Source: Gracilimonas sp. (lineage in GTDB: Bacteria; Bacteroidota; Rhodothermia; Balneolales; Balneolaceae). From it: a DNA stretch of 64,000 nucleotides. Location of the stretch: positions 31,792 through 95,791 of the forward strand of contig JAKURD010000012.1 of the NCBI GenBank assembly GCA_022450045.1, given 5' to 3'. Made by a program: the position numbers and the translations under genes. The notes under the pieces are model-generated. The model saw nothing but the letters and a program-made list of their open reading frames with translations, was not told the origin of the DNA and searched no databases. Numbering within the stretch: the stretch's first letter is position 1; the number at the start of each line of letters is the position of its first letter. Below, piece after piece: positions 8,102 through 59,781 of this stretch.

Positions 8102-9787
8102 TTAATTAATTTTTTCTTGCAGCTGAGTCCGGCTTGAATCTTTTTCCAGGGCTTTTTTCCACCAATCCCGGGCTTCATCGAGATCACCCAGCTTTTCATG
8201 CACATCGCCCATATGTTCCAACACCTCAGCACTCGACTCTCCGGTATCAATAGAGGCTTTAATAAAACGCTGAGCACGATCATAATCTTCTAATTTAAAA
8301 TATACCCAGCCTACGGTGTCCAAATATGCGGCATTCTCGGGATTGACTTCAATAGCTTTTAGTGCTAACTCCTTCGCGCGTTCCAGGTTTTCTCCGCGAA
8401 CCGACAAATGGTATGCGTAGTTATTCATGGCATTATCATTTTCAGGATCATACCGAAGAGCCAGTTCATAGGCTTCATCCGATTCTTCATGTTTTCCAAG
8501 GTTTGCTCGTGTATCACCGAGCGTACTGTATATTGCCGACTTAAAAGGACGACGCGCCGGAGTGCTCACCGCATTGGAAAGCCATTCTTCAGCTTCTTCA
8601 TTTTGATCCATTAACATATAGGCGCTTCCTGTAAAAAACTGAATAAATGCATCATCCGGGACGGACTCATCTGCTTTTTTGCCCACCTCAACCGTTTCCT
8701 CATATTTTTCCAAACTCATTAAAAGCTGAAGTCGTTGTCGCCAGGCGATCTCATCCTGCGGCAATAATTCATTCGCTCTCTCCAGGTTTTCAAGTGCTTT
8801 TGCGGGCTGAGCCGTTTGAATATAATACTGACCGGCCAAAGTAAAAGCAGGCCCGTAATCGGATTCAGTTTTGGTAAAAGAGTCCAGCACTCTTTCTGTT
8901 TCCACCCGAAGCTGAATATTCTGTGGATCATTCTGGATCCTTGAATATAAAAAGCGGGCGATGTTCATTTTTTCCTGTGCTTCTAACAGCGGATCAGAAA
9001 TAAAATTAGTAAGTAATGTGCCGGCACTGTCCCATTTTTGTTCGTCAAGATAAATTCCCGCTAAATTGATGAGTGATTGAGGATCACGGGCATTCCGGGT
9101 TAGAGCATCGTTAAGCGTTTCCGTAGCTTTTTCTGTACGACCGGTTTTAACGTAATATTCCCCAAGCAAATTTAGCATCTCCAGGTTATCGGGATCTGCT
9201 TCTCTGATCTTCTCAAGTTGTGCGACCGCAGAATCCGGAATTGCTAATGCTTCGAAGTTTCTAAACTTCATCAATAAAACAGACGGATCAGCCCCTCTCA
9301 GTTTTAGAATTTCATCCAGGGTTTGATTTGATTTAACAAACTCTCCATAATCCTTGTAAGTATCAGCGAGCATATATAGAGCATCAAAATCACCGGGATG
9401 ATAATCGAGCAAGGTATTTAACTCCCTGAGCGTTGCTTCATTTTGCCCGGCACTTCTGTAAATACGAATAAGTTTTAACCTGAACCATTTATTGTCCGGC
9501 TCTGAATCTACGGCTTGCTTTCCATAAAGAGCCGCATTCGGGAGGTCATTGAGTTGCAGATAGGTATCTGCCAATGCGTAATCAATTCCGGTTGACGAAC
9601 CCAAATTTCGTTTAGCATCCAGTAAAAACTGTCGTGCTTTTTCATACTCTTCATTCTCAAAAGCTTCCATTCCTTTGATATAAGCTGACTTTCCGGACAG
9701 CTCTTTCTGGGTCTGTACTTGCCCATAAACAGGGATTACAAACAGCATTATAAAAAATATATTCAGACAGTATTTCATGACATTCAT
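8102..9787 (-). CDS. Exported tetratricopeptide-repeat protein
   Basis: At least ten TPR-like units (for example NEEYEKARQFLLDAKRNLG, LENLERANELLPQD, LERAKELALKAIEVNPENA) fill about residues 25-560. The N-terminus MKYCLNIFFIMLFVIPVYGQ is a signal peptide. The frame is open to a GTG at 9838, but the in-frame ATGs at 9787 and 9778 place the signal peptide properly, so I chose 9787; 9778 is equally possible. TPR proteins are scaffolds. Coupling to the DUF4292 lipoprotein (1-base gap) and the EnvC-like gene suggests one envelope-related operon. The last units (AAYLDTVGWVYFKLEDYDRA) are of the type seen in lipoprotein-associated TPR proteins. Confidence 0.8.
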   Translation of the reverse strand: MNVMKYCLNIFFIMLFVIPVYGQVQTQKELSGKSAYIKGMEAFENEEYEKARQFLLDAKRNLGSSTGIDYALADTYLQLNDLPNAALYGKQAVDSEPDNKWFRLKLIRIYRSAGQNEATLRELNTLLDYHPGDFDALYMLADTYKDYGEFVKSNQTLDEILKLRGADPSVLLMKFRNFEALAIPDSAVAQLEKIREADPDNLEMLNLLGEYYVKTGRTEKATETLNDALTRNARDPQSLINLAGIYLDEQKWDSAGTLLTNFISDPLLEAQEKMNIARFLYSRIQNDPQNIQLRVETERVLDSFTKTESDYGPAFTLAGQYYIQTAQPAKALENLERANELLPQDEIAWRQRLQLLMSLEKYEETVEVGKKADESVPDDAFIQFFTGSAYMLMDQNEEAEEWLSNAVSTPARRPFKSAIYSTLGDTRANLGKHEESDEAYELALRYDPENDNAMNNYAYHLSVRGENLERAKELALKAIEVNPENAAYLDTVGWVYFKLEDYDRAQRFIKASIDTGESSAEVLEHMGDVHEKLGDLDEARDWWKKALEKDSSRTQLQEKIN

Positions 9788-9956
9788 AATAACGCTAAGT
9801 ATAACAGGAAAGTGCCATTTATGCTTGCTTAGATTCACCTTTCTAAGCTTTTAAATGTCTTTCTCTAACATTATCAGCTAACGCAAAAGAATGTTCAATA
9901 TATGCCTTAAAAATTAGCATTTGTTTAACAAGTAATACTTTGCCTATTTTACAGCC

Positions 9957-10025
9957 ATGCTATTTCAAAGCAGACATAGGATCAACTTAATTTCACTTCG
10001 GCGGCGGCTCCGGCAACGGCGGTAG
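9957..10025 (+). CDS. Arginine-rich leader peptide, putative attenuator of the arg operon
   Basis: A short ORF of 22 codons reads MLFQSRHRINLISLRRRLRQ followed by two more Arg and TAG. Eight codons are Arg: AGA, AGG and six CGG, with three CGG in a row at 9999-10007. It lies 104 bases before the first gene of the arginine operon, on the same strand. This is the classical layout of ribosome-mediated attenuation, where low charged tRNA-Arg stalls the ribosome in the leader. There is no clear Shine-Dalgarno sequence, which is common in this phylum. The assignment is inferred from composition and position only. A chance ORF is possible but unlikely with 8 of 22 Arg codons exactly here. Confidence 0.75.
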   Translation: MLFQSRHRINLISLRRRLRQRR

Positions 10026-10070
10026 TCATTCCATTGCTGCATCTTTCAGCAGCGCTCATCTTCTTACCGC
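10019..10070 (+). promoter_or_regulatory. Stem-loop after the Arg leader, putative attenuator structure
   Basis: GCGGTA (10019-10024, overlapping the last Arg codon and stop) can pair with TACCGC (10065-10070). An inner hairpin GCTGC/GCAGC lies at 10036-10053. A ribosome stalled on the Arg codons would cover the left arm, so the structure could switch with translation. A T-run after the stem is missing, so a simple intrinsic terminator is not evident. Control could instead act by other folds in the GC-rich codon run or on translation of the next gene. Confidence 0.45.
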
Positions 10071-10128
10071 GAGATCCTAATTAATAACTTCCACAGGCGA
10101 AGTTTATCACTCACTATTTTATATACCA

Positions 10129-10779
10129 ATGTCCGTTCAAATTTTTATAGCTACAGAAATTCATACATTCTTCGCAGAAGATATCTGTTCACTAATTGAA
10201 AAAGCGGCCCACCAACGCGGGACCGGTATTGCAAAGCGTGAACCTGATTATATCAAAACTAAAATGACCAATGGTAATGCTGTTATTGCCCTGGATGGAG
10301 ATCAGCTTGCCGGCTTTTGTTACGTTGAAATTTGGGAAGACAAAAAATACGTGGCCAACTCGGGGCTGATCGTGCATCCTGGTTATCGCGGACGGGGACT
10401 TGCCAAAAAGATCAAAACCAAAGCCTTCAAACTATCCCAAAAAAAGTATCCCGGTTCAAAACTATTTGGCATTACTACCAGCCTTCCGGTGATGAAGATC
10501 AACTCAGATCTGGGATATAGGCCTGTTACATTCTCTGAACTTACACAGGACGAAACCTTCTGGAAAGGTTGCCAAAGCTGTCCCAATTACGACATCCTGA
10601 CTCGCAACAACCGCAAAAACTGCCTCTGTACTGGCATGCTCTTTGATCCGAGACATCTCAATAGCAAGCCTAAACAAGAACGCGACCAAACTATTGCCAA
10701 GTACTATCGATGGGTGAAATTGAAAACCGTTAAGTACCTCAAAAAAATTAATCCCGTAAATCTGTTTTTACTTATATAA
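10129..10779 (+). CDS. GNAT N-acetyltransferase, candidate N-acylglutamate synthase
   Basis: The 216-residue protein has a GNAT fold, with the acyl-CoA-binding loop at HPGYRGRGLAKKIK and the preceding beta strand SGLIV. It is the first gene of the arginine operon, which has no argA or argJ, so by position it should make N-acetyl- (or N-succinyl-) glutamate. This is inference. The C-terminal part carries CxxC, a 13-residue gap and CxC (start CQSC, end NCLC), which may bind metal and is unusual for a small GNAT. It lies 2 bases before argG and downstream of the Arg-rich leader, so its expression should respond to arginine supply. Confidence 0.75.
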   Translation: MSVQIFIATEIHTFFAEDICSLIEKAAHQRGTGIAKREPDYIKTKMTNGNAVIALDGDQLAGFCYVEIWEDKKYVANSGLIVHPGYRGRGLAKKIKTKAFKLSQKKYPGSKLFGITTSLPVMKINSDLGYRPVTFSELTQDETFWKGCQSCPNYDILTRNNRKNCLCTGMLFDPRHLNSKPKQERDQTIAKYYRWVKLKTVKYLKKINPVNLFLLI

Positions 10780-10781
10780 CC

Positions 10782-11984
10782 ATGAGCAACAAGAAAAAAG
10801 TTTTACTCGCATTCAGCGGCGGGCTCGATACCAGCTATTGTGCCATTTGGCTTGCAAAAGAAAAAGGGTATGAAGTCCATACCGCAGCCGTACATACCGG
10901 TGGATTTAATGAAGCTGAAGAAAAAGCTTTAGCTGAAAAGGCCAAGAACCTGGGTATCAAAAATCATGTGATGCTTAATGTGGAAGAAGAATTCTACGAA
11001 AAGGGTATCAAGTATCTGATCTTTGGGAATGTCCTCAAAAATCACACCTATCCGCTTTCGGTAAGCGCTGAACGTGTATTTCAGGCTGTGGCTATAGCCG
11101 AGTATGCCAAGGAAATTGGAGCCGACGCCATTGCACATGGAAGTACCGGGGCCGGGAATGATCAGGTTCGCTTTGATTTGGTTTTTAATGTAATGGCTCC
11201 CGAAATGGAGATCATTACCCCGATTCGAGACCAAAAGTTAAGTCGCGAGGAAGAGGTAGAGTATCTGCAACAAAATGGTATCGATCAGGAATGGGAGAAG
11301 GCGAAATATTCCATCAATAAAGGATTGTGGGGTACTTCTGTGGGCGGAGCCGAAACGCTGACTTCTCACCTGGGACTTCCTGAAGGTGCATGGCCTACAA
11401 AAGTCTCAGCAAAAGAACCGAAAACGATCGAGCTGCATTTTGAAAACGGTGAATTCGTCGGTATTGATGGACAAATTTTTGATCCGGTTCAAGCAATAAA
11501 AGAGCTGGAGAAGATCGCTTCTCCCTATGGAGTTGGTCGTGACATTCATGTGGGGGATACAATCATTGGCATCAAGGGCCGCGTGGGATTTGAGGCTGCC
11601 GCCCCGATGCTCATCATAAAAGCACATCAGCTTTTGGAAAAGCACACCCTCGGTAAATGGCAGTTGTACTGGAAAGATCAACTGGCAGAATGGTACGGAA
11701 TGCTGATGCACGAAGGGCAATATCTTGACCCAGTGATGCGCAATATCGAAACCTTCCTGGAGGACACACAGAAGAATGTCTCCGGGAAAGTATTTTTAAA
11801 ACTGGAGCCCAGGCGATTTGAGCTGCAGGGCATTGAATCTGAAAACGATCTAATGGCTTCTAACTTTGGCCAATATGGTGAAATGAATAACGCATGGAGC
11901 GGCGAGGATGTAAAAGGCTTCACCAAGATTCTGGCTAATTCTATGCTTATTCAACAAAAAGTACAGGAACAAAATAATGATTAA
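10782..11984 (+). CDS. argG: Argininosuccinate synthase
   Basis: The 400-residue cytoplasmic enzyme joins citrulline and aspartate using ATP. The pyrophosphatase-loop motif AFSGGLDTSYC is at residues 9-19. Other family segments are HGSTGAGNDQVRFD and the citrulline/aspartate-binding part near residues 115-130. Length is standard. It starts 2 bases after the GNAT gene and overlaps argC by 8 bases, so it is part of one transcript. Confidence 0.97.
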   Translation: MSNKKKVLLAFSGGLDTSYCAIWLAKEKGYEVHTAAVHTGGFNEAEEKALAEKAKNLGIKNHVMLNVEEEFYEKGIKYLIFGNVLKNHTYPLSVSAERVFQAVAIAEYAKEIGADAIAHGSTGAGNDQVRFDLVFNVMAPEMEIITPIRDQKLSREEEVEYLQQNGIDQEWEKAKYSINKGLWGTSVGGAETLTSHLGLPEGAWPTKVSAKEPKTIELHFENGEFVGIDGQIFDPVQAIKELEKIASPYGVGRDIHVGDTIIGIKGRVGFEAAAPMLIIKAHQLLEKHTLGKWQLYWKDQLAEWYGMLMHEGQYLDPVMRNIETFLEDTQKNVSGKVFLKLEPRRFELQGIESENDLMASNFGQYGEMNNAWSGEDVKGFTKILANSMLIQQKVQEQNND

Positions 11985-12942
11985 AGTGGGCATCATTGGC
12001 GGCGCGGGTTATACATCCGGAGAACTAATTAGAATTTTACTTCATCATCCTGAGGTACAACTCGAAAGTGTAGTGAGCCGAAGTCACGCTGGAGAATTCT
12101 TATATAAAGCCCATCCCGACCTGACGGGCGAAACTGATCTGAAATTTGATTCAGATTTAAATCAGGGTGTAGATATTGTCTTTCTCTGTTCTGGACACGG
12201 AAAGTCAAAAGGATTGGTAGAAACCGGGGTACTTCCGGAGTCTGCAAAGATCATCGACCTGAGTACTGATTTCCGTCACAAAGGTAGTTCTCACGATTTC
12301 ATTTATGGCCTGCCGGAGCTGAATCGTGGGGAGATTAAAAAAGCAAATCATATAGCCAATCCGGGATGTTTTGCAACGTGTATTCAACTTACGCTGCTAC
12401 CACTTGCCAATGCTGGTTTATTGAATGAAGATGTACATGTAACGGCTATTACCGGAAGTACCGGCGCGGGCCAGAACCCAACCGCAACCACGCATTTTAG
12501 CTGGAGAAGTAATAATGCCTCTATCTACAAACCCTTTAAGCATCGTCACCTAAAAGAGATCAAACAAAGTTTGACGCAGCTTCAGAATGGCTTCAACAAG
12601 GAGATTCATTTTATCCCCATGCGCGGGGCTTTTACCCGGGGTATTTTAGCAGCTTCTTATTTATCAACCGAAAAATCTCTGAATGAAATAACTTCGATGT
12701 ATCAGGGATTTTATGCCGGTCACCCCTTTATTCATCTCTCGAAAGAACCGGTAGATGTAAAACAGGTGGTTGGAACCAACAAGGTCTTCCTTCACCTCCA
12801 AAAAGAAAACGGTATAATTCTCATCACAGGAGTCATTGATAACCTGGTGAAAGGAGCTTCCGGTCAGGCAGTGCAAAATATGAATTTGCTCTTTGGGCTT
12901 GATGAAACAGAAGGGCTTACTCTAAAATCAATAGCATTTTAA
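11977..12942 (+). CDS. argC: N-acetyl-gamma-glutamyl-phosphate reductase
   Basis: The 321-residue enzyme reduces the acyl-phosphate made by ArgB to the semialdehyde with NADPH. The nucleotide motif GIIGGAGYTSGEL is at the N-terminus and the catalytic cysteine lies in NPGCFATC (about residue 131). GSTGAGQNPT and FIPMRGAFTRGI are further family motifs. The start overlaps the argG stop by 8 bases, which suggests translational coupling. Confidence 0.96.
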   Translation: MIKVGIIGGAGYTSGELIRILLHHPEVQLESVVSRSHAGEFLYKAHPDLTGETDLKFDSDLNQGVDIVFLCSGHGKSKGLVETGVLPESAKIIDLSTDFRHKGSSHDFIYGLPELNRGEIKKANHIANPGCFATCIQLTLLPLANAGLLNEDVHVTAITGSTGAGQNPTATTHFSWRSNNASIYKPFKHRHLKEIKQSLTQLQNGFNKEIHFIPMRGAFTRGILAASYLSTEKSLNEITSMYQGFYAGHPFIHLSKEPVDVKQVVGTNKVFLHLQKENGIILITGVIDNLVKGASGQAVQNMNLLFGLDETEGLTLKSIAF

Positions 12943-12944
12943 TC

Positions 12945-13754
12945 ATGGCTAAGAAACAAGACATCGCGATCATAGGAGCCGGGAACCTGGGCATTGCCGT
13001 TGCAAAAGGCATTGTCGGAGCTAAATTGGCGAAATCAAAAAACATGTATTTAACACGCCGGCATCTGGAAAAACTGCTTGAGTTGAAGAAGCAAAAATTT
13101 CAGATCACTTCGAATAATATCGAAGCTGTACAAAACGCAGAGTACATTTTTCTCTGCGTTCAACCCAAACAACTACCGGAAGTTTTAAAGGAAATTAACT
13201 CTGTTCTCGATCCCAAAAAACACGTACTCATCTCTACTATAACCGGGGTTGAAATTGCCTCGATAGAACAGCATCTGGAGCAGGAAATCCCCATTATTCG
13301 TGCCATGCCCAATACTGCAGCGGCCATTCAGGAATCAATGACCTGTATGTGTGGGAAGAATGTCTCTAACGGGCAACTCCAGGAAGTGAAAGTGCTTTTT
13401 GAAGCTTTGGGTGAGGCCATGATCATTGATGAAGATCTAATGAAAGCCGCTACGGTATTAGCAGCAAGCGGAATCGCTTTTTTCCTTCGATATATTCGCG
13501 CGGCTACTCAAGGCGGAATTCAGCTTGGTTTTCATGCTGACGATGCCCAGAAAATTGCTATGCAAACTGCCCGTGGAGCGGCCTCACTTTTAGTTGAAGG
13601 TCACAATCATCCTGAAACTGAGATCGATAAAGTAACCACACCTCAGGGCTGCACCATCGCAGGATTGAATGAAATGGAACATCAGGGACTTAGTTCAGCT
13701 GTGATCAAAGGACTAATGGCCTCATTCGAAAAAATTAACACCATTACAGAATGA
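12945..13754 (+). CDS. proC: Pyrroline-5-carboxylate reductase
   Basis: The 269-residue enzyme makes proline from P5C with NAD(P)H. The N-terminal Rossmann motif is IIGAGNLGIAVAKGI. The C-terminal catalytic/dimer region VTTPQGCTIAGLNEMEHQGL matches the ProC signature, in which the family has a TSPGGT-type sequence. It sits between argC and argD, 2 bases after argC and overlapping argD by 4 bases. Proline synthesis is thus placed under arginine-operon control, an arrangement that connects ornithine-derived P5C to proline. Confidence 0.92.
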   Translation: MAKKQDIAIIGAGNLGIAVAKGIVGAKLAKSKNMYLTRRHLEKLLELKKQKFQITSNNIEAVQNAEYIFLCVQPKQLPEVLKEINSVLDPKKHVLISTITGVEIASIEQHLEQEIPIIRAMPNTAAAIQESMTCMCGKNVSNGQLQEVKVLFEALGEAMIIDEDLMKAATVLAASGIAFFLRYIRAATQGGIQLGFHADDAQKIAMQTARGAASLLVEGHNHPETEIDKVTTPQGCTIAGLNEMEHQGLSSAVIKGLMASFEKINTITE

Positions 13755-14878
13755 ATCTATTTCAAGTATATCCGCTTTTTGATGTGGAGCCAGTGAAAGC
13801 TAAAGGCAATTACGTATATGATGCTGCCGGACAGAAATACCTCGATTTTTACGGAGGTCATGCGGTCATTTCTATCGGACATTCACATCCGCATTATGTG
13901 GAACGAGTGAATGCACAGTTGAACGAAATCGGTTTTTATTCAAATTCAGTTCCCATCAGAATTCAGGAACAACTCGCTAAGAAATTAGGGAAACTTTCAG
14001 GTTATAATAACTGGAATCTGTTCCTTTGCAACTCCGGGGCCGAAGCGAATGAGAATGCACTGAAAGTTGCTTCAGCTCAAAATCAGCGTAAGAAGATCAT
14101 AGCGTTTAAAGGAGGGTTTCACGGAAGAACTTCCCTTGCGGTTTCTGTCACGGACAATCCAAGCATCCTTTTTCCGGTGAATGAAGGAGCTGATGTTATC
14201 CGTTTTGCTTTTGAAGACTTTGAAGGAGTAGAATCGGCCCTGAAAAATGAGGATGTCAGTTCAGTGATTATTGAAGGCATTCAGGGAGTAGGTGGAATTG
14301 TGGCTCCTTCTGTCAGTTTCTTGAATCACCTGAGAAAACTATGCAATGAAACAGGAACCGTACTGATCCTGGACGAAGTACAATCAGGCTTTGGGCGAAC
14401 CGGGGAGTTTTTTGCTCACCAATTGTTTGGGGTTGAGCCGGACATCATCACAATGGCAAAAGGCATGGGTAATGGATTTCCGGTGGGAGGTGTGTTTATT
14501 CATCCCAAATTTAAAGCTTCCTTTGGAATGCTGGGAACTACTTTTGGAGGAAATCATCTTGCCTGTGCGGCATCTTTGGCCGTGCTGGAAGTACTTGAGC
14601 AAGAGAAACTCATTAGCAATGCAAAAGCGATGGGCCGGTATCTGGAAGCCGGGTTAAGTCAACTTCAAAAAGTAAAAAAAGTACGGGCATTTGGGTTAAT
14701 GGTCGGCGTAGAATTTGAAGAACCGGCAGCAGAATGGAGAAAGAAATTGCTATACGAACACTACATTTTCACCGGTTCCTCCTCCAACAAAAATGTACTT
14801 CGATTGCTGCCTCCACTTTCCATTGGTAAAGAAGAATGTGATGAATTAATTCAAGCTTTAAAGGAGGTTTTGAAATGA
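13751..14878 (+). CDS. argD: Acetylornithine (or succinylornithine) aminotransferase
   Basis: The 375-residue PLP enzyme of class III converts the N-acylglutamate semialdehyde to N-acylornithine. Visible motifs are NSGAEANENALK, the PLP-phosphate-binding GGFHGRTSLAVS, ILDEVQSGFGRTG and the Schiff-base lysine in MAKGMGNGFPVGG (about residue 236). Length is normal. The ATG overlaps the proC stop by 4 bases. Its position between argC and argF' fits the order of the pathway. Confidence 0.95.
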   Translation: MNLFQVYPLFDVEPVKAKGNYVYDAAGQKYLDFYGGHAVISIGHSHPHYVERVNAQLNEIGFYSNSVPIRIQEQLAKKLGKLSGYNNWNLFLCNSGAEANENALKVASAQNQRKKIIAFKGGFHGRTSLAVSVTDNPSILFPVNEGADVIRFAFEDFEGVESALKNEDVSSVIIEGIQGVGGIVAPSVSFLNHLRKLCNETGTVLILDEVQSGFGRTGEFFAHQLFGVEPDIITMAKGMGNGFPVGGVFIHPKFKASFGMLGTTFGGNHLACAASLAVLEVLEQEKLISNAKAMGRYLEAGLSQLQKVKKVRAFGLMVGVEFEEPAAEWRKKLLYEHYIFTGSSSNKNVLRLLPPLSIGKEECDELIQALKEVLK

Positions 14879-14965
14879 ACGGATCTAAAACGAACAAGAA
14901 AAGTCCTCAAGGAGAGACTTCTCAATCTCTAAAGAATAATATATAACAGCAACCCCGAATTAAAT

Positions 14966-15919
14966 ATGAATTCATTCCTATCCATAAAAGATATTGAAAA
15001 TCTTCCGGCGTTGGTGAAAGATGCACTGGAGATCAAAAAGAATCCACATGTGTACACAGATCTTGGGCGGCAAAGATCAATGTGCCTTATTTTTCTAAAT
15101 CCCAGCTTACGAACCCGGTTAAGTTCCCAAAAAGCAGCTTTTAATCTTGGGTTGAATACCGCTGTGTTGGATGTTGGGAGTCAGGGCTGGAGGCTGGAAT
15201 TTGAAGATGGCGTCGTTATGGATGGCGACAAAGCTGAACACATGAAAGAAGCGGCTGCCGTCATCGGTTCTTATTTTGATGTGGTAGCGATCCGTGCTTT
15301 TGCCAAACTGGAAGACCGGGCAGAAGATTACAGTGAGCAGGTGATGGAATCCTTCAAAAAATACTGTCCTGCTCCGGTTATTAATATGGAGTCTTCGACG
15401 GGACATCCCTTGCAGGCCCTGGCCGACCTTATCACCATAGAAGAACATAAAACCGTCGAAAAACCGAAGGTGGTCTTGACCTGGGCTCCCCATCCGAAAG
15501 CACTTCCTCAAGCTGTAGCAAATTCATTTTCAAGATGGATGCAGGAAGCGGAATTTGATCTTACTATTACCCATCCTGAGGGCTATGAATTGGTTGATGA
15601 AGCCATTGGCAATGCGAAAGTGGAGTATGACCAGCAGAAAGCTTTTAAAGGCGCAGATTTCATCTATGCTAAAAACTGGAGCAGTTACTCCGATTATGGG
15701 AAAGTTTTTTCAACGGATCCATCCTGGATGGTAACATCAAAAAAAATGAGCCTGACAAATAATGGTAAATTCATGCACTGCCTTCCGGTACGGCGAAATG
15801 TGATCGTGGAAGATGCGGTACTGGACAGCGACCAGAGTCTTGTTATTCCTCAGGCCTCAAATAGGGTGACCTCAATGCAAGCCGTACTTAAGAATATCTT
15901 GGAGGGATTGACGAAGTGA
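14966..15919 (+). CDS. argF': N-acetylornithine (or N-succinylornithine) carbamoyltransferase
   Basis: The 317-residue protein belongs to the carbamoyltransferases that act on acylated ornithine, as in Bacteroides and Xanthomonas. The carbamoyl-phosphate site reads FLNPSLRTR instead of the STRTR of normal OTCase. HPLQALAD and HCLPVRRN are also typical. The acyl specificity is decided around residue 90 in characterised enzymes (Glu in the acetyl type, Pro in the succinyl type). Here that stretch is DKAEHMKEA with no proline, which weakly favours acetyl; I could not align it rigorously. An 87-base gap separates it from argD and it overlaps argB by 4 bases. Confidence 0.92.
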   Translation: MNSFLSIKDIENLPALVKDALEIKKNPHVYTDLGRQRSMCLIFLNPSLRTRLSSQKAAFNLGLNTAVLDVGSQGWRLEFEDGVVMDGDKAEHMKEAAAVIGSYFDVVAIRAFAKLEDRAEDYSEQVMESFKKYCPAPVINMESSTGHPLQALADLITIEEHKTVEKPKVVLTWAPHPKALPQAVANSFSRWMQEAEFDLTITHPEGYELVDEAIGNAKVEYDQQKAFKGADFIYAKNWSSYSDYGKVFSTDPSWMVTSKKMSLTNNGKFMHCLPVRRNVIVEDAVLDSDQSLVIPQASNRVTSMQAVLKNILEGLTK

Positions 15920-16680
15920 GTGCTCTAAAAGTCATAAAGATTGGCGGAAAAGTGATCGATGACAACCAAAAAATGGATACTTTTCTGGAGGCTTTCGTTT
16001 CCATAAGAGAACCGAAAGTACTGGTTCATGGTGGAGGATCTATCGCATCCGGAATGAGCGAGCGACTTGGCATCAAACCAAACGTGGTGGCTGGCCGGCG
16101 CATAACTGATACAGAAACGCTGGAAGTGATCACTATGGTGTATGGAGGATTGGTGAACAAGAAGATCGTGGCAAAATTGCAGTCGCTTGGGGTAAATGCC
16201 GTGGGATTATCAGGAGCCGATCTAAATATCATTTCCGCAACAAAGCGAGATCCCGAGCCCGTAGATTTTGGATGGGTAGGAGATGTGGATCAGGTAAATC
16301 CGGAGTGGGTCACAACATTTTTAAATAAAGGGATTACTCCTGTTTTAGCTCCCCTCACACATAATGGAAGTGGAAACATGCTGAACACGAATGCAGACAC
16401 TATCGCTTCTTCCGTGGCTTCGGCTTTGAGTTCTGATTTTGAAACGGAACTTATGCTTTGTTTCGAGCAAACCGGGGTGATGAACGGTGAAAAACTTATC
16501 ACAGAAATGAACCAGCTTTTATATCGACATTTAAGAGATACAGGAGTAGTGACCGATGGCATGATTCCAAAGATCGAGGTAGGGTTTCAGGCACTTAAGA
16601 ATGGGGTTAGAAAAGTGAACATTAGAAACTTTGAGGATGTGGCAAAACCGGATTCAGGAACAGTTTTTATATCAAATTAG
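15916..16680 (+). CDS. argB: Acetylglutamate kinase
   Basis: The 254-residue amino-acid kinase phosphorylates N-acylglutamate. It has the N-terminal KIGGKVID, the substrate-binding VHGGGSIASGM and GVVTDGMIPKIE near the C-terminus. The start is GTG, overlapping the argF' stop (GTGA overlap). The protein is slightly shorter than enterobacterial ArgB but complete. No N-terminal helix of the arginine-inhibited hexameric type is visible, so feedback inhibition by arginine is uncertain. The leader peptide may then be the main control. Confidence 0.94.
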   Translation: MSALKVIKIGGKVIDDNQKMDTFLEAFVSIREPKVLVHGGGSIASGMSERLGIKPNVVAGRRITDTETLEVITMVYGGLVNKKIVAKLQSLGVNAVGLSGADLNIISATKRDPEPVDFGWVGDVDQVNPEWVTTFLNKGITPVLAPLTHNGSGNMLNTNADTIASSVASALSSDFETELMLCFEQTGVMNGEKLITEMNQLLYRHLRDTGVVTDGMIPKIEVGFQALKNGVRKVNIRNFEDVAKPDSGTVFISN

Positions 16681-16803
16681 GCAATGGAATGGAACACGGA
16701 TAACCCGGATTTGGCGGATAGCCACTGGTAAAATTTTAATCTATATAACATTTTCGTGTTTTTGAGCTTTCGTGGCAAAAATTCACGACTACTAAAAACA
16801 ATC

Positions 16804-17868
16804 ATGAACAAGATCGAACAACTTAGTGAGCAGGCCATTGAACTCTTAAAAAAGCTCATTTCAACCCGGTCGTATAGTGGTGAAGAAGATGAGACTGCCA
16901 TGCTGCTTTCGAATGTGTTGGAAGAATTCGGTTTCACCCCGAAACGAAAAGGAAATAATGTTTGGGCATGGTCCGGAAAAACCGATTCTGAAAAACCCAC
17001 GCTGATGTTGAATTCCCATCACGACACGGTCAAGGCTTCTTCCAAATGGACCAAGGACCCCTTCACCCCAACTTTCGATAACAATCAAATGTTTGGATTA
17101 GGAAGCAATGATGCCGGTGGACCTCTGGTAAGTTTATTAGCTGCTTTTATTTACCTGTCCCAACAAGAGCAACCTTACAACTTGGTATTTCTTGCTTCGG
17201 CTGAGGAAGAAACTTCCGGGAAAAACGGGGTTCCAATTGTACTGCCTGAATTGGGAAAAATAGATCTCGCCATTGTAGGTGAACCGACCTCTATGGAGCT
17301 GGCCATTGCCGAACGTGGCTTGATTGTGCTGGATTGTGTGGCTCACGGAGAAAGCGGCCACGCCGCCCGGAATGAAGGGGAGAATGCCCTCTATAAGGCT
17401 ATGGATGACATACACTGGTTCCGCACCTTTCATTTTGAAAAGGGTTCGGAAGTGCTCGGAGAAATCAACATGACGGTGACGATGATCGAGGGGGGAAGTC
17501 AACATAATGTAGTACCGGATGAATGCCGGTTTGTGGTCGATGTACGCCCTAATGAGTTTTATTCGAACGAGGAAGTGATTGATATCATCCGCAATCATGT
17601 GGATTGTGAGATAACTCCAAGATCCACCAACTTAAATGCTTCAGGAATTTCAACGGAACATCCGGTGGTAAGAAAAGGTGAGAAGCTGGGCATCAAAGCC
17701 TATGGTTCCAAAACGATGTCAGACCAGGTTCACATGCCATTTAATAGTGTGAAAATAGGCCCCGGAAACACCCGCCGTTCGCATACCGCGGATGAATTTA
17801 TTTATCTGGATGAAATTCGAGAAGGCATCAAAACGTATATTGAGCTTTTGGACAACTTACAGATATAA
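16804..17868 (+). CDS. argE: M20-family deacylase, probable N-acetylcitrulline/acetylornithine deacetylase
   Basis: The open frame extends to 16756, but the ATG at 16804 (MNKIEQLSEQAIELL) matches the family N-terminus and gives 354 residues. Metal ligands of the M20 fold are visible in SHHDTVK, GSNDAGG, ASAEEETSG (catalytic Glu-Glu) and VGEPTSME. The late His is probably in RRSHTADEFI. Because ArgF' uses acylated ornithine, the deacylation step should act on N-acylcitrulline before ArgG. LysK/DapE-type M20 enzymes look alike, so the assignment rests mainly on context. It is 123 bases after argB and 69 bases before argH. Confidence 0.85.
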   Translation: MNKIEQLSEQAIELLKKLISTRSYSGEEDETAMLLSNVLEEFGFTPKRKGNNVWAWSGKTDSEKPTLMLNSHHDTVKASSKWTKDPFTPTFDNNQMFGLGSNDAGGPLVSLLAAFIYLSQQEQPYNLVFLASAEEETSGKNGVPIVLPELGKIDLAIVGEPTSMELAIAERGLIVLDCVAHGESGHAARNEGENALYKAMDDIHWFRTFHFEKGSEVLGEINMTVTMIEGGSQHNVVPDECRFVVDVRPNEFYSNEEVIDIIRNHVDCEITPRSTNLNASGISTEHPVVRKGEKLGIKAYGSKTMSDQVHMPFNSVKIGPGNTRRSHTADEFIYLDEIREGIKTYIELLDNLQI

Positions 17869-17869
17869 C

Positions 17870-17903
17870 GTGTTACCGTGGCTTAATAGAAGCACGGTAA
17901 CAC
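17870..17903. repeat. Perfect hairpin between argE and argH
   Basis: GTGTTACCGTG (17870-17880) is the exact reverse complement of CACGGTAACAC (17893-17903), with a 12-base loop. The stem starts directly after the argE stop. It lacks a T-run, so it is more likely a processing or mRNA-protecting structure or a repeat than a terminator. A related 12-bp hairpin stands before the MetZ-like gene at 43743-43777, and both are followed by TTAACAC. Confidence 0.7.
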
Positions 17904-17937
17904 TTTAACACCTTCACACTTAAACACTTGAAGAAAA

Positions 17938-19227
17938 ATGAAGAAACTTTGGGAAAAAGGAATTGAAACCGATGCATTCATTGAGAAGTTCACGGTAGGG
18001 AATGATCGGGAATTAGATCTGGAACTTGCTAAATATGACGTTCAGGGAACCATCGCCCATATTACCATGCTCGAATCAGTGGGTTTACTGGAATCAGACG
18101 AACTTGAGGAACTTACCGGTGAATTGAATCGCATTCTGGATGAAATGATTGAGCCGGGTGATTTTGAGATCGAAGAAGGAGTGGAGGACGTGCATTCCCA
18201 GATCGAACTTATGCTGACTCGGTCACTTGGGGATGTCGGCAAAAAAGTTCACTCCGGCCGCTCACGAAACGATCAGGTGCTGGTTGATATTCGTCTTTAT
18301 CTCCGTGATCAGATCAAAGAGATCGCTTCCCTTTCCAAAAAATTATTCGATACGCTGATCTCACAAAGTGAATCAAATAAAGAGGTCCTGCTGCCCGGAT
18401 ATACACACACTCAGGCTGCCATGCCCTCAAGTTTTGGGATGTGGTTTGGAGCCTATGCCGAGAGCCTTGTGGATGACCTGATGATGTTGGAATCAACATA
18501 TAAGATCATCAATCGAAATCCCCTGGGGTCCGCGGCAGGGTATGGATCTTCTTTCCCTTTAGACCGAACCATGACCGCCGAACTGCTCGGCTTTGAAGGA
18601 TTGAACGTGAATTCTGTGTACGCACAGATGGGGCGTGGAAAAACAGAGCAAACGCTTTCCTTTGCCATGGCGGGGCTTGCCGGAACGCTAAACAAACTGG
18701 CATCGGATGTTTGCCTCTATAACAGCCAAAACTTCAACTTTATCAAACTGCCCGATGAACTGACCACCGGCTCCAGCATCATGCCGCACAAAAAGAACGC
18801 GGATGTTTTTGAGTTGATCCGTGCCAAGACGAACCTGCTTCTTTCTCTGCCCAATCAAATTGTGATGACCACTTCAAACCTGACCTCCGGCTATCACCGT
18901 GACTTCCAGGTTCTAAAAGAGATCTTATTTCCGGCCATTCAAGAATTAAAAGACTGCCTCTTCATCACCGGGTATGCAGTTGAAAAAATTCAGGTGAATG
19001 ATCAGATCTTAGACGATCCAAAATACAAACTCATCTTTTCGGTGGAAGCAGTTAATGAGCTGGTGTTAAATGGAACTCCTTTTCGTGATGCTTATCAAAA
19101 AGTAGCACAGCAGATCGAAGATGGAAGTTTTGAGCCGCCTGCTGAGCTTAACCATACTCATGAGGGTAGTATTGGAAATTTGGGAAATAAAGAGATTCGG
19201 GAAAGGTTAAACAGACTTGAGATTTAA
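17938..19227 (+). CDS. argH: Argininosuccinate lyase
   Basis: The 429-residue enzyme of the fumarase/aspartase superfamily releases arginine and fumarate, the last step of the pathway. SGRSRNDQVLVD (about residue 105) and the signature GSSIMPHKKNADVFE (catalytic Ser, about residue 280) are present, as are TVGND-type and HTHTQAA-like segments. Length is slightly below the usual 455-460. It closes the operon. The intergenic hairpin before it could set its expression apart from the upstream genes. Confidence 0.95.
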   Translation: MKKLWEKGIETDAFIEKFTVGNDRELDLELAKYDVQGTIAHITMLESVGLLESDELEELTGELNRILDEMIEPGDFEIEEGVEDVHSQIELMLTRSLGDVGKKVHSGRSRNDQVLVDIRLYLRDQIKEIASLSKKLFDTLISQSESNKEVLLPGYTHTQAAMPSSFGMWFGAYAESLVDDLMMLESTYKIINRNPLGSAAGYGSSFPLDRTMTAELLGFEGLNVNSVYAQMGRGKTEQTLSFAMAGLAGTLNKLASDVCLYNSQNFNFIKLPDELTTGSSIMPHKKNADVFELIRAKTNLLLSLPNQIVMTTSNLTSGYHRDFQVLKEILFPAIQELKDCLFITGYAVEKIQVNDQILDDPKYKLIFSVEAVNELVLNGTPFRDAYQKVAQQIEDGSFEPPAELNHTHEGSIGNLGNKEIRERLNRLEI

Positions 19228-19278
19228 GACATAAGATTAAAGATTGTTTGTCTCAAGCCTTTCATCTCACTACTGATC

Positions 19279-19830
19279 ATGAACCAACTTTATTTCATAG
19301 CCCTTATTCCGCCCTCACCCCTAAGAGATGAAATTCAGCAATTGAAGCTGGATGTGAGAGATAAGTTTGGCAGTAAACATGCACTGAATGCTCCTCCACA
19401 CATTACACTCTTGAGTCCCTTTCGCATTGAGAAAGAAAATGTGGATCGCCTGCATTCTATGTTAGAAGTATTTACACAGGGGTTTAACCCCTTTAAAGTT
19501 CAATTCAATGATTTTTCCACCTTTCCGCCCCGTGTGGTTTTTATTAATGTGATTAAGTCACCCGTGCTCACCGAAGTGCAAACCAAACTTGAAAAACTGG
19601 GCCGTTCTAATCCGGAGCTTTTCAACTACAATTATGATGAGCGGCCGTATCATCCTCACTTAACACTGGCCTTCAAGGATCTCACTAAAAGTGACTTTTA
19701 TGCTGTTTGGAAAGAGTTTGAGCATCAGGAATTCCGAAAGGACTTTTTAGCCGAACAGCTTTACCTGCTAAAGCATAACGGTGAAGTTTGGGAAGTTTCT
19801 GAAACATTTCCTTTGGCCAATCCTGGCTAA
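19279..19830 (+). CDS. 2H phosphoesterase (2'-5' RNA ligase / LigT-ThpR superfamily)
   Basis: The 183-residue protein has the two HxT/S motifs that define the 2H superfamily: HITLLSPF (about residue 41) and HPHLTLAF (about residue 126). These enzymes open or form cyclic phosphodiester bonds on RNA ends or small nucleotides, and the natural substrate is often unknown. The length agrees with ThpR-like proteins. It lies 51 bases after argH on the same strand and may be read with it, but has no evident link to arginine. Confidence 0.85.
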   Translation: MNQLYFIALIPPSPLRDEIQQLKLDVRDKFGSKHALNAPPHITLLSPFRIEKENVDRLHSMLEVFTQGFNPFKVQFNDFSTFPPRVVFINVIKSPVLTEVQTKLEKLGRSNPELFNYNYDERPYHPHLTLAFKDLTKSDFYAVWKEFEHQEFRKDFLAEQLYLLKHNGEVWEVSETFPLANPG

Positions 19831-19922
19831 GATCAACCTAATCCAAATAAACCGGAATGCACCCAACTAGTTTAATGTTGAAGGGTCGGAATAATTATTC
19901 AATAACTTATAACAATTCAAAA

Positions 19923-21053
19923 ATGACAAAGTCACTTAAATTATTTGAAGAAGCAGACCTGGGATCAATAACATTACAAAATCGTGTGGTTATGGCTCCT
20001 ATGACCCGCAGCCGTGCTACCGCCGATCATGTTCCCACCGATATCATGGCAACCTATTATGGGCAGCGTTCTAATGCCGGACTTATTATTACGGAAGGAA
20101 CTGCCCCTTCTCCGAATGGAGTTGGATACCCCAGAATTCCCGGTATTTATAATGATGAGCAACGTGAAGCCTGGAAACCGATAGCAGATAATGTTCGTCA
20201 AAATGGCGGAAAAATATTCATGCAATTAATGCACACCGGACGTATCTCCCATGAACTGAATATGCCTGATGATGCAAAGATCCTGGCGCCAAGTGCGGTA
20301 CCTTTCACCGACGATCAGATGTACACCGATCAGAAAGGCCCACAAGACTATCCCGTTCCTGAGAAGATGACGGAAGCCGAAATACAGTCAACCATTCAGG
20401 AACATGTTGATGCAGCTAAGCGTGCAATTGAAGCCGGTTTTGATGGCGTCGAGATACACGGAGCCAATGGATATCTGATCGAACAATTTTTAGCTCCCAA
20501 CACCAATACACGAGACGACAACTACGGCGGATCCATCGAAAACAGGAATCGTTTTGCCATTGAAGTTTCAAAAGCTGTAGTTGATGCCATAGGCAAAGAA
20601 AAAACCGGGATCCGGCTTTCTCCTTATGGTGTATTTAGTGGCATTAAGCCTCACGATAACATCGACGAACAGTACATTGAACTTACCAAAGCCCTTAACG
20701 ATCTTGGATTACTATACATCCATATTGTTGATCACTCCGCCATGGGCACACCGGAGGTTCCCGATTCCATCAAAATTGCGATCAAAGATCACTTCAGTGA
20801 TGGAGCGATTATTCTTTCAGGCGGATACAATGATGCAGAAGAAGCAAGCAAAGACCTTGAAAATGAGAATGGACATTTGATTGCATTTGGACGGCCGTTC
20901 ATTTCAAATCCGGATCTTGTGAACCGCTTGAAAAATGACATTTCCCTGGCTGATCCCGATCATGACACCTTCTACACTCCGGGTGCTGAAGGTTACATCG
21001 ATTACCCAACAGCTGATGAATCACAAACTCTAAATACCGTGAATTCGATATAA
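19923..21053 (+). CDS. Old yellow enzyme family alkene reductase (FMN)
   Basis: The ATG at 19923 (MTKSLKLFEEADLGSI) is chosen over the longer open frame from 19857, because family members begin at this point. The 376-residue FMN enzyme should reduce activated C=C bonds with NAD(P)H. VVMAPMTRSRA, the QLMHTGRIS segment, HGANGYLIEQFLAP and GGSIENRNRF are typical, and the active-site His-Asn pair lies in HGAN. Family members usually end soon after an AEGYxDYP motif. Here the last residues TVNSI and the stop are encoded by a MITE-like terminal repeat (21038-21056), so the C-terminus has been altered by the element. Confidence 0.92.
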   Translation: MTKSLKLFEEADLGSITLQNRVVMAPMTRSRATADHVPTDIMATYYGQRSNAGLIITEGTAPSPNGVGYPRIPGIYNDEQREAWKPIADNVRQNGGKIFMQLMHTGRISHELNMPDDAKILAPSAVPFTDDQMYTDQKGPQDYPVPEKMTEAEIQSTIQEHVDAAKRAIEAGFDGVEIHGANGYLIEQFLAPNTNTRDDNYGGSIENRNRFAIEVSKAVVDAIGKEKTGIRLSPYGVFSGIKPHDNIDEQYIELTKALNDLGLLYIHIVDHSAMGTPEVPDSIKIAIKDHFSDGAIILSGGYNDAEEASKDLENENGHLIAFGRPFISNPDLVNRLKNDISLADPDHDTFYTPGAEGYIDYPTADESQTLNTVNSI

Positions 21054-24650: not shown

Positions 24651-27256
24651 ATGAGAAAACTTGAGAAGTTTACAAGATATAAGATAGCGTTGTTCTGCGG
24701 GGTGTTGATAGCATTTTTGATAAGCTTTCCTATACAATCAACGGCTCAGGTTATAATTAAAGAAAAGTTAGAGCTGACTGACAGTAACAAGAGCATACTC
24801 GGCAAGGCCTCGGTGCAAAACGAAGAGTACAGTTGTTGCTATTTGCACGTTGGTGGCCAGTATTCATTAAGAATTGGTGGTTTGCCGGTGGTTATCAATT
24901 ATGGGAAGAAGGAATAGGATTTGTAAGCAGTAATTTATACCGGGGCAAAATAATTGATTTAGGGGTATTCCCGCAGTGGAAGCATTTCAGTTTTTATTTA
25001 TACGATCCTGAAAAGGATAGAAGGTCCGATCATCTAAATGTCACATATTATCCTGAATCAGAAGACTCCTCCCTTGCCAAAATGCCGCCTCCCGTTGCCT
25101 TAGATTTTTTTGGTGACCCGTTTACTCCAAGCGGGGAAGTAACTATCAGGGAAGATGGATTTATGAGATTAGATATGAGGGGAGGCAGTATAGGGAGTAA
25201 AGATCTTTATATAGATATGCCAAGAGACAGCCTGATAAAGGCAGAAATTAAGGAAATTGATATAATAGAGCATGTTGATGTAGGAGTTGTCAGAGCTGGT
25301 GAAGTATATCGGTTTTACATTACTTCAGAATTCCCGATGGTTTCTGGCCAGAAGCTATATCCAAAGTATAAATATTGGAACAATTATGATAGAATTGCGG
25401 AACTTAGATTTGATGATTGGACCGATCTTCGTTTTGATGATCTCACCGTATTTATTGAAGTAGTCGAACATCCCAAAACACCTCGATATATCAGATTGAG
25501 ATCAAGTCCAAGTGAAGTGCTTCCGGATTATGATAAACAGGTATCTTTTAGCTTGGAAAGAATAAATAAAGACTATACAGCAGAAGATTTCCCCAAGGAT
25601 CAAAAGTTTGATGTTCAGATGGATGAGTCAAAAGAACAATTTGCTACACTGCACGATCCCGAAACCGGACAAAGGGGAACCAGTCTAAAGGAGGTTTCGG
25701 GGAATTTTCATATGGACATCCATACATATGAAGAAATAGAAGGATTTACAGGCAATATTAACGTCGAAGCTTCTACTAAAGTTTTAGGCCCTGTTGTAAA
25801 AGAGAAAGTTGAAATTTCCGGGGACTGGGATGTGGAAATTGTAAACAAAAAAATGTTTTTAGACTTTAGTCCCAATCCGGTGGGTAAAGGAGACACAGCA
25901 TTAGCACGGCCATACTTGATATATGCGAATGGAATTCAACAATATCTTCCTGCTAATTATCCTTTAGCGTATGCCAGTGTGGCAAATGCCTCAAAACCCC
26001 TGGGTACATTACGGAATGTTGCAACCGGTGAAACCTCTGATCGCTTGTACAATATGCCCCAGGGCGTTCAGTTTGTAACCCGCTCAGATATTCCTCAGGA
26101 TACTGCCGCAGCGCGCATGGTGGTGAGCGCATATGTAGACAAAGAAATACCGTCAGAAATTAACGGAATGTCTTTATCAAGCCAGTCTATAAGTGAAAGC
26201 AGAGCGATTTTGAATAACATTGAGCCGGCAGAAAAGGAACTGATGGAGCAACAGTTTCTTGAGAGGATAGAGAGTGAAAGTGTAAGTAATAGTATAAATC
26301 AAGGTCAAAACCTGGAAGCCAATTCCATTGGTATAATGAGTCACAATTCAGATCAGGATTATCTTTATGGATATGGAAATTTATTGATAACAGATAAAAC
26401 GTGTGACGAGGAGATCAGCCCATGTACAACTGAGGATCAAAATCCTCAAGAACTAAATATGGATGTTTTTGAAACATACTCAGAGGAGGATGTTTTCACC
26501 GGAAAAAGCGTAAAAAGTGAAGAGCAATTCACAACAGAAGTTAAAGGCTGTTCGTATCGTCTTGATCCCAATAAAATTCCCGGATATACATCACAACGTT
26601 TAGGGGTGACATTTCCACTAATCACGGTGCCGATTGAGCGTGATCCTGGAGAACCCTATTATGTACCCTTTTCCGATATGGAAATTGAAATCTGTTTATT
26701 AGAAAGTATGGAGAAATGGTTATTTAATATTGATAATTTGAGAATACCACTTTTTAGTTCCTATTGTTCACAACATGAATATCTTAATCTTGAAGATGGC
26801 AATAATACAGCTCTATTAACCAATCACATTAATAGTTATGAAGAATATCTAACCGTTGTAGAAGATATTGAGTATTGGGAAAAAGGCTCTTATAGTCAGC
26901 TTGGGGAAAAACCTAATAAATATGTTTTTGAAGCAGGAATAAAGATTCACGAAGACTATCATTTAAATCAATTAATAAACTCGCTTAATAAAAGGTTGAA
27001 TGACGCTTTCAAAAAAATAAGGACACTTCATTACGAAAAAAATGATTTTCAATGTCCGATTGACGTAAGAGAATCAGCAACATTTCAAATAAATCAAATT
27101 CTATCAGACGCTTATAATGCTGCTACCTCAAAACAATTGAATTTGGAAGAAATGAAACAAAATGAGATAAAAGCTGATGATTACTCTTCATCTAAGTATG
27201 AAGAGATATTAACGAACATTCAAAATTGGGCTAAAAAACAACCTTGGTTCCAGTAA
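24651..27256 (+). pseudogene. Exported metallopeptidase-like protein split by a frameshift
   Basis: The ATG at 24651 opens a frame with a clear signal peptide (KIALFCGVLIAFLISFPIQSTAQ) that stops at 24917. A second frame, open from before 24833 to 27256, carries the remaining 780 or so residues without any signal peptide. One base change between 24833 and 24917 would join them, so this looks like one gene of about 860 codons with a frameshift or sequence error. The product is mostly unrecognised beta-rich sequence. Near the C-terminus (second frame residues 706-710, bases 26948-26962) is HEDYH, a zincin HExxH motif, followed 36 residues later by a Glu in RESATFQ that could be the third ligand. 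It heads a cluster of exported proteins. Confidence 0.6.
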
Positions 27257-27272
27257 ATTTAAGGGGATTTTT

Positions 27273-28538: not shown

Positions 28539-28629
28539 TTTAAATAAATCTGTAGTGTATCGAGAGGAAATTGATAAGGCAATTTTAACAGGTGGCGGTT
28601 TACAGAGAGCTCATCCGAGACATTGTTAA
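28531..28629 (+). CDS. Possible 32-residue ORF between the two paralogues
   Basis: The frame ATG AAT GAT TTA AAT at 28531 overlaps the end of the preceding gene by 8 bases and stays open for 32 codons (MNDLNKSVVYREEIDKAILT, then GGGLQRAHPRHC). No family is recognised. It may be a small gene, the remnant of a third gene lost between the duplicated copies, or chance. Confidence 0.25.
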   Translation: MNDLNKSVVYREEIDKAILTGGGLQRAHPRHC

Positions 28630-28647
28630 TAGAGCAGATATAGAACA

Positions 28648-55227: not shown

Positions 55228-55230
55228 ACT

Positions 55231-59154: not shown

Positions 59155-59298
59155 AAGTTGAAAGGAACCTTTCCCTCTGTGCAAAATAATCTGTTAAGTA
59201 CTTCGCCCAACGAAATTAAAATTCCAGTAATTGTACATTCCGAATTATGGTATGGGGTGCAGAAAAATGAACGAAAGGAAGAAAACAAACAAAAGGAA
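59155..59298 (+). pseudogene. VapC-like PIN-toxin remnant
   Basis: Immediately after the cas3 stop, the frame reads KGTFPSVQNNLLSTSPNEIK followed by IPVIVHSELWYGVQKNERKE. This matches the inner part of VapC PIN toxins from the LKG turn to the helix carrying the conserved Glu (SELWYG). The N-terminus with the first Asp (LLDTN-like) and the C-terminal half are missing. The frame then runs on into a cas6 fragment, so it is a decayed toxin gene joined to the next segment. A TTG at 59158 could start a 97-residue chimera, but this is unlikely to be functional. Confidence 0.6.
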
Positions 59299-59304
59299 TA
59301 TCCA

Positions 59305-59777: not shown

Positions 59778-59781
59778 CTAA

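Follow-up and report, generated by a model that had tools for sequence, protein, structure and literature searches.

In the trp, his and leu leaders of enterobacteria, ribosome-mediated attenuation is exerted by a short ORF in which codons for the amino acid made by the operon abound. Arginine operons are usually controlled by ArgR. Nascent arrest peptides such as the fungal AAP and SpeFL act as sensors in the ribosome tunnel; AAP, which is not rich in Arg codons, senses free arginine through its peptide sequence.

The nearest arginine cases that were found are Salmonella orf34-speF and S. aureus rbfL. For orf34-speF, pausing without arginine at consecutive Arg codons is described to change the RNA structure, and a "ring-like structure" is named (PMC6386406), while the Arg codons of the leader peptide of rbfL are described to sense arginine limitation (PMC13009471). 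Leader peptides before amino-acid operons are already suspected in Flavobacterium: for F. psychrophilum, a member of the same phylum as Gracilimonas, "strong clues" for leader peptide attenuation before such operons were presented and the elements before pheA and hisG were named conserved, arginine appearing once in the main text, in another context (PMC9723704). The Bacteroid-trp RNA (RF01692) is a Bacteroidetes motif related to tryptophan by name (PMC2864571) and differs from the present case, since it gave no match at E ≤ 1 to the leader region or to 12 related loci. In the literature searched (subscription papers, preprints and supplements aside), no arginine leader ahead of an arginine synthesis operon in Bacteroidota was found, which does not prove its absence.

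The locus considered here is contained in a window of 64,000 nucleotides (the whole stretch of DNA that was analysed) of Gracilimonas sp., a member of the Balneolaceae. With the trp, his and leu leaders it shares an end-product-codon-rich short ORF and helices that a stalled ribosome would prevent; it differs from them in being an arginine leader, in the AUG at the predicted RNA 5' end, in a Balneolaceae switch helix whose strands lie in the early ORF and beside the first gene, and in the absence of a shared intrinsic terminator. Since this last feature was looked for and not found, the leader is not classed as a trp-type attenuator. A short upstream peptide for arginine control is common to this locus and AAP, and the difference from an ArgR regulon is that 92 of 92 Balneolaceae genomes are without an ArgR match. 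Similar to orf34-speF, and judged by its description, is the upstream ORF with consecutive Arg codons; orf34-speF, however, controls ornithine decarboxylase, has two such consecutive codons and involves RNase G and Rho (PMC6386406). The rbfL leader differs by its rare AGG codon and by pausing that represses a biofilm regulator through covering of the ribosome binding site (PMC13009471).

The leader and the nine same-strand genes downstream of it are as follows:

9957..10025, + strand: arginine leader ORF, 22 codons, product MLFQSRHRINLISLRRRLRQRR followed by the stop, conserved in relatives
10129..10779, + strand: GNAT acetyltransferase (PF00583), first gene of the operon
10782..11984, + strand: argG, argininosuccinate synthase, scores under NCBIfam cut-offs
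11977..12942, + strand: argC (TIGR01850)
12945..13754, + strand: proC (TIGR00112)
13751..14878, + strand: argD-type aminotransferase, by profile matches
14966..15919, + strand: argF-type carbamoyltransferase of the N-acetylornithine type (NF003384, 312 bits vs cut-off 288)
15916..16680, + strand: argB (TIGR00761)
16804..17868, + strand: argE/dapE-type deacylase, by profile matches
17938..19227, + strand: argH (TIGR00838)

In view of its scores, ArgG is considered divergent, and the match of the carbamoyltransferase to the N-acetylornithine type above the cut-off suggests that arginine may be made via acetylcitrulline. A match to this ArgG was also absent in 9 of 29 family genomes examined that carry no full GNAT match (G021, G028, G013, G041 and others), which are possible arginine auxotrophs; most of the remaining GNAT-less genomes among these 29 have only a distant ArgG (~30 % identity).

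The leader ORF extends from an ATG at 9957 to a TAG stop at 10023-10025, with 103 bases between this stop and the GNAT ATG at 10129, and contains eight Arg codons (AGA, AGG and six CGG, three of them consecutive). Among 670 ATG-started ORFs of 10-45 codons on both strands of the window, it alone has six CGG and it alone has at least six Arg at an Arg content of at least 30 %; if GTG and TTG starts are also allowed, six CGG are found in one and the latter composition in two of 1254 ORFs. The binomial probability of at least eight Arg in 21 codons amounts to 1.5e-6, a single-ORF value uncorrected for ORF number. The string CGGCGGCGG was found once in the window. A regulon comprising several operons of this genome was looked for with the pattern CGNCGNCGGTAR, which was found at six places of the whole genome, none of them by eye a leader ahead of an amino-acid gene, a weak result since the leader's own CGGCAACGGCGGTAG end escapes the pattern. 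Thus, the 22-codon ORF with eight Arg codons ahead of a nine-gene arginine operon, as described in the sequence-only reading, is confirmed, and the stem-loop placed 3' of it is present as a hairpin at 10035-10054. Elsewhere in the window, the GC content falls to 33-35 % (26001-30000, 54001-60000 and 62001-64000) compared to 38-49 % in the rest, possibly reflecting acquired DNA.

The real proof that the putative leader is no product of chance is, at the level of sequence comparison, its conservation in relatives. The GNAT protein was matched in 46 of 92 Balneolaceae genomes, leaving 42 loci after omission of four weak matches or fragments, and an Arg-rich ORF precedes GNAT in 40 of them. In 30 loci (L001-L030), a script requiring 18-26 codons and at least four Arg detected an ORF that is 20-25 codons long, contains four or more Arg and lies 83-121 bases ahead of GNAT; ten further loci (L031-L040) were seen by eye to carry a longer ORF in which Arg clusters like VRRRPRAL or VRPRPV occur, and in L041 and L042 no such leader was seen by eye ahead of the GNAT gene. 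A strict test (ATG-started ORF within 350 bases of GNAT, at least three Arg among the last eight residues) was passed by 32 of 40 distinct Balneolaceae regions, as compared to 2 on the reverse strand and a mean of 0.9 in shuffles. Of other named genomes, 47 of 74 distinct regions passed (reverse strand 2, shuffled 1.45), these regions being mostly from Bacteroidota and representing the best 80 of 588 relatives. A second sample was spread evenly over the phylum, and 27 of its 85 non-Balneolaceae loci passed (reverse strand 1). Judged from these genomes, the candidate leader is nearly universal in Balneolaceae with the operon and far from universal in the phylum, and similar putative Arg leaders precede the same operon in part of the Bacteroidota. 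In 11 of the 85 loci of the phylum sample, all of genus g52 (L227, L237, L238, L243, L245, L251, L252, L253, L256, L257 and L260), a conserved ORF like MNKISLHITSLSRTNSPITSPEVRTLSL, not rich in Arg, ends 217-242 bases before GNAT, so that a different leader may occupy the same place there. Two tandem Arg-rich ORFs, ending ~230 and ~90 bases before GNAT, were noticed by eye in Winogradskyella and Psychroserpens (L074 and L090); the ATG-started one ends NRRR or KRRR, and the second, perhaps GTG-started, RRP-stop.

Comparison of 20 distinct Balneolaceae leaders revealed that the ATG is kept in all of them and that length changes of +6 (L006), +3 (L001) and -3 (L027) preserve the frame; L003 has lost the stop, with another one two codons further on, and the sole indel inside the ORF that is no multiple of three is found in L017, where two bases are missing close to the end and the stop is shifted. 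In-frame stops number 0 in frame 0, compared to 3 and 32 in frames 1 and 2, and the mean BLOSUM62 score over differing residues is -0.97 in frame 0 vs -1.27 and -1.24 in frames 1 and 2. Several Arg near the ORF end are common to the 40 leaders examined. The last three Arg positions (60 codons in 20 leaders) are written with 51 CGG, 5 CGA, 3 CAG/CAA and 1 ATG, no other Arg codon being used. Accordingly, frame and Arg codons, by which the sequence-only reading proposed to judge the leader in relatives, are both kept. Among the non-Arg residues, Ile at codon 9 is found in 20/20 leaders and Pro before the last Arg run in 14/20; the others vary by genus (IPRRR, PLRRR, IYRRRR, RLRQRR, RRPRALxGS), some being kept within genera and fewer between genera.

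A rare-codon reading was rejected, since CGG accounts for 18 % of the Arg codons in 40 ORFs of the window. A dedicated tRNA-Arg(CCG) was not found among 39 RF00005 matches in an assembly given as 96.8 % complete. The Arg anticodons found are ACG, TCG, TCT and CCT (one RF00005 match was not called by ARAGORN). Since no gene for tRNA-Arg(CCG) was found, decoding of CGG probably falls to the UCG species, and CGG together with CGA probably represents the codons expected for tRNA-Arg(UCG). The CGG letters also take part in a helix in Gracilimonas (B:B', see below), so that there may be two reasons for the preferred codons. In Flavobacteriaceae, the Arg cluster is written with CGT and CGC.

Four RNA elements were predicted between the early leader codons and GNAT:

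9977..9983, + strand: strand A (TAGGATC) of a long-range helix, inside leader codons 7-9
10073..10079, + strand: strand A' (GATCCTA), partner of A, upstream of GNAT
10019..10025, + strand: strand B (GCGGTAG), last Arg codons and stop, predicted to pair with 10064-10070
10064..10070, + strand: strand B' (TTACCGC), by predicted fold
10035..10054, + strand: hairpin C, 3' of the leader stop, by predicted fold, RNAalifold and covariation
10086..10104, + strand: hairpin D (AACTTC/GAAGTT), near the GNAT start, without U tract, by predicted fold

The predicted fold of the window RNA contains A:A', B:B' and the hairpins C and D, and is only modestly better than that of shuffles (z -1.61; 14 of 200 as good); D was not seen in L012 and L014. 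In all 26 distinct leaders (26/26), A:A' is the best contiguous helix that the early ORF can form with the sequence ahead of GNAT, beginning at ORF nt 19-23 in 20 leaders and at nt 12-13 in six of one genus. Its letters differ (TAGGATC/GATCCTA, TAGAATTGA/TCAATTCTA, ATAGTATTGA/TCAATACTGT, TAACATTGTTCG/CGAACAATGTTA, AAAGTATA/TATACTTT), and a helix as good was obtained in at most 11 of 500 shuffles for 16 of the 26 leaders and in more than 11 for the other 10 (worst case L025, 119/500). RNAalifold recovered A:A' and C unaided from 22 rows, with both-side changes at 9 of 15 pairs. In a MAFFT family alignment not fitted to structure, in which 13 pairs of A:A' and C were counted, 92.7 % of cells are paired (79.8 shuffled, 40.9 best slid), 56 cells are changed on both sides (19.1 shuffled), covariation is 0.533 (0.263 shuffled; reached by 0 of 500) and nine pairs are changed on both sides (6.7 shuffled; 4/500), whereas the number of pair types shows no excess (19 vs 17.9; 161/500). 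All six pairs counted for hairpin C change on both sides in this alignment (92.4 % of cells paired).

For A:A' alone, rows were cut in register from each row's own best helix, a choice favouring A:A'. Over 12 pairs, covariation is 0.238 vs 0.102 shuffled, while doubly changed pairs (5 vs 4.0; 144/500) and types (13 vs 10.8; 58/500) are not beyond shuffles. The core of seven pairs is 97.1 % paired with a covariation of 0.357 vs 0.145; here too, doubly changed pairs (3 vs 1.9; 37/500) and types (7 vs 6.4; 173/500) are not beyond shuffles. On the GNAT tree, many forks of which are weakly supported, one A:A' pair changed type at least seven times, being paired in 20/20, another three times and another twice. 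Taken together, the predicted helices A:A' and C covary in Balneolaceae. B:B' (GCGGT/ACCGC) is confined to seven same-genus rows, other genera having other nested pairings or none. Both A:A' and B:B' use leader codons, their disruption by a ribosome being modelled, for A:A' mostly with the need of a queue. A 5-pair hairpin (TGCAA/TTGCA, ORF nt 2-18) was noticed in 9 of 27 folded rows, the predicted fold of the window itself lacking it; since some of the start codon of the leader is contained in it, initiation there may be throttled.

Promoters of Bacteroidota carry TTG near -33. Two promoter-like elements precede the leader of Gracilimonas:

9920..9923, + strand: TTTG, -33-like promoter element, the TTG position shared in 25/26 loci
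9945..9952, + strand: TATTTTAC, -7-like element, matching 4 of 6 letters of TAnnTTTG

The TTG lies at -36 (20 loci) or -35 (5 loci) from the leader ATG, and a TAnnTTTG-like box fits best at offset -12 (mean match 4.0 of 6 vs 2.1 over all offsets, 26 loci). As the Bacteroidota -7 box is described as spanning positions -12 to -5 relative to the start site (PMC9723704), the RNA is predicted to start at, or a few bases from, the leader AUG. At a threshold of at least 4 of 6 matches, the motif is found upstream of the leader in 24 of 26 loci and between leader and GNAT in 6 of 26; a downstream promoter was rejected, at least 5 of 6 matches occurring in that interval in 0 of 26 loci. The concern attached to the original proposal, that transcription might start downstream of the ORF, is hence answered by a predicted start upstream.

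Ribosome-mediated arginine control through tRNA charging is the best reading of this locus, in which we infer translation, stalling and the sign of the response. It appears likely that the translated arginine leader senses Arg-tRNA charging via an RNA ring, with low expression when the ring is closed. Judged by the promoter motif, transcription would start at or beside the leader AUG, and a ribosome would consequently load once the RNA emerges. With ample arginine, the ribosome would pass the Arg codons and depart, after which leader codons 7-10 (A) would pair with A' just upstream of GNAT and, in Gracilimonas, B with B', thereby closing an RNA ring around hairpin C that is taken as the low-expression state. 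With scarce arginine, the ribosome would stall on the Arg codons, the ring would fail to form and the operon would be expressed. The AGA/AGG at codon 8 lies inside A, the CGG cluster overlaps B, and a queued ribosome would cover A. The closed ring might lower expression by making it harder for ribosomes to load on the long unstructured stretch ahead of GNAT, or might promote factor-dependent termination in this C-rich, G-poor stretch.

To model the opening of A:A', ribosome masks were placed on extended RNAs of the 26 leaders, giving mean A:A' probabilities of 0.75 for the free RNA, 0.74 when one ribosome occupies the last Arg cluster, 0.72 when it occupies the stop and 0.05 when another ribosome is queued behind the stalled one. 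In the model, stalling confined to the last Arg cluster thus leaves A:A' almost fully paired, and opening would require a queue or a stall further upstream; for the window alone, a single modelled stall lowers the probability from 0.90 to 0.25. The idea that the ring directly masks the start of GNAT was not supported, as the predicted openness of this start hardly changes (0.73 to 0.77).

A terminator reading of the hairpin after the stop was rejected in the window, where it has no U tract and where no terminator-like site follows the leader. Weak terminator matches occur at several places in 7 of 26 family leaders (1.7 expected), L023, L024 and L026 sharing one such site that overlaps the Arg codons. 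For regions of the Flavobacteriaceae type, the figure is 14 of 50 (3.8 expected), with many of these sites at a hairpin over the stop codon. Neither the 26 Balneolaceae leaders nor the 50 Flavobacteriaceae-type regions have an intrinsic terminator in common, even though a terminator may act in some lineages. A trp-like transcription attenuator is therefore not demonstrated, the hairpin 3' of the ORF being no terminator and no family-wide one being found. Before GNAT, the 26 family leaders contain 29.6 % C and 6.6 % G, compared to 20.2 % and 14.0 % before 27 control genes taken from this window only; a C/G ratio of at least 3 is found in 22 of 26 leaders vs 3 of the 27 control genes. Such a C-rich, G-poor stretch would suit Rho loading but also ribosome loading, and is no sign that Rho acts here. 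For translation as the output step the chances are about even, factor-dependent termination is a possible though less probable candidate, and some other step appears unlikely.

RRP-stop is a frequent end of the leader in Flavobacteriaceae, where it is embedded in CGYCGCCCGUAAGGG; GGAA..UAGGUGNGUCC..UUC comes next, ~60 bases before GNAT. A conserved RNA element, CGYCGCCCGTAAGGG ... TAGGTGNGTCC, overlaps the end of the Arg leader in L058, L074, L075, L086 and 41 other loci. For the alignment, 45 distinct rows were chosen by letter patterns from 165 GNAT loci, so that their likeness is partly due to selection. RNAalifold yields just four pairs for these rows, one of them with a double change in two rows; it is thus mainly the conserved sequence that speaks for the second hairpin. 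The pattern TAGGTGNGTCCNNTTC is present in 29 of 60 Flavobacteriaceae genomes (reversed control once), and 29 of its 30 places precede GNAT on the same strand by no more than 300 bases. The three loci with the element that were scanned against Rfam (L074, L075 and L086) gave no match at E ≤ 1, nor were there any in positions 9000-21000 of the window and 12 related loci. One may tentatively speculate, at somewhat less than even chances, that arginine synthesis in much of the ArgR-less Bacteroidota is controlled by Arg-codon leaders which are themselves near-leaderless and precede one conserved start of the operon, that the ring-closing long-range helix replaces the terminator in Balneolaceae, and that Flavobacteriaceae fuse the last leader codons (RRP-stop) to a conserved RNA specific for the arginine operon (two hairpins, one over the stop codon and one with the loop UGNGU), as a possible second sensor binding, e.g., arginine or a protein.

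ArgR (PF01316) gave no match in the source genome and in 0 of 92 Balneolaceae genomes (66 of them at least 90 % complete), compared to a match in 9 of 14 control genomes, in agreement with the suggestion of the sequence-only reading that an Arg leader would be a strategy different from ArgR. Among 247 Bacteroidota genomes, ArgR was matched in 93, GNAT in 103 and both in 4; that both searches covered the same 247 genomes is taken from equal settings and shared handles. The four comprise two with weak ArgR matches (G120, G140) and two in which ArgR adjoins GNAT (G293, G300), the match lying within ~0.6 kb of GNAT at loci (L284 and L279, respectively) without an Arg-rich leader. Fisher's test of this exclusion gives P values of 7.6e-26 (the weak two counted as without ArgR) and 2.5e-23 (with them), which ignore kinship between non-independent cases, and phylogeny is a confounder of the exclusion. 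At many GNAT loci of the phylum, both ArgR and a recognised Arg leader are missing.

The possibility that the peptide itself is the sensor, i.e., that nascent RRxxRRR arrests the ribosome upon sensing free arginine or a pathway metabolite in the tunnel instead of tRNA charging, would agree with the position of the Arg cluster at the very end of the ORF and with the non-Arg residues kept in much of the family (Ile at codon 9, Pro in most leaders). However, codons 7-9 are accounted for by the pairing with A', and the non-Arg residues differ by genus, several terminal Arg being common to the 40 leaders; such an arrest peptide is regarded as improbable. A chance Arg-rich stretch arising from CGG repeats, with which the single occurrence of CGGCGGCGG in the window would be compatible, is refuted by the cross-genus conservation as compared to reverse strand and shuffles, and its probability is next to nil.

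Leader genes have been proposed to raise expression of the next gene (PMC4833913), and since the ORF is situated at the predicted 5' end, it could be a constitutive aid to translation or reinitiation, or an opener of the 5' end, without any arginine sensing. This would leave unexplained both the Arg clusters before the arginine operon in other lineages (47 of 74 loci vs 2 on the reverse strand) and the missing ArgR, and is therefore very unlikely. RNA covariation and the sequence-conserved element of Flavobacteriaceae tied to the operon (29 of 30 loci) would also be expected of a structured RNA, i.e., a riboswitch or protein-binding site, with the ORF being incidental; it is the preservation of ATG, frame, stop region and Arg codons amid sequence change outside A/A', together with ORF indels in multiples of three (the gap of L017 excepted), that renders this explanation highly doubtful as compared to ribosome-mediated arginine control.

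Bacteria of this phylum are described as starting translation without Shine-Dalgarno sites (PMC9723704), and the locus offers a testable regulator in bacteria thus described. It points to a leader switch that lacks an intrinsic terminator, and to a conserved RNA for which the loci scanned gave no Rfam match. If the proposed control holds true, an ArgR-less family, and probably parts of the phylum, would read arginine by ribosome pausing, with the two strategies replacing each other.
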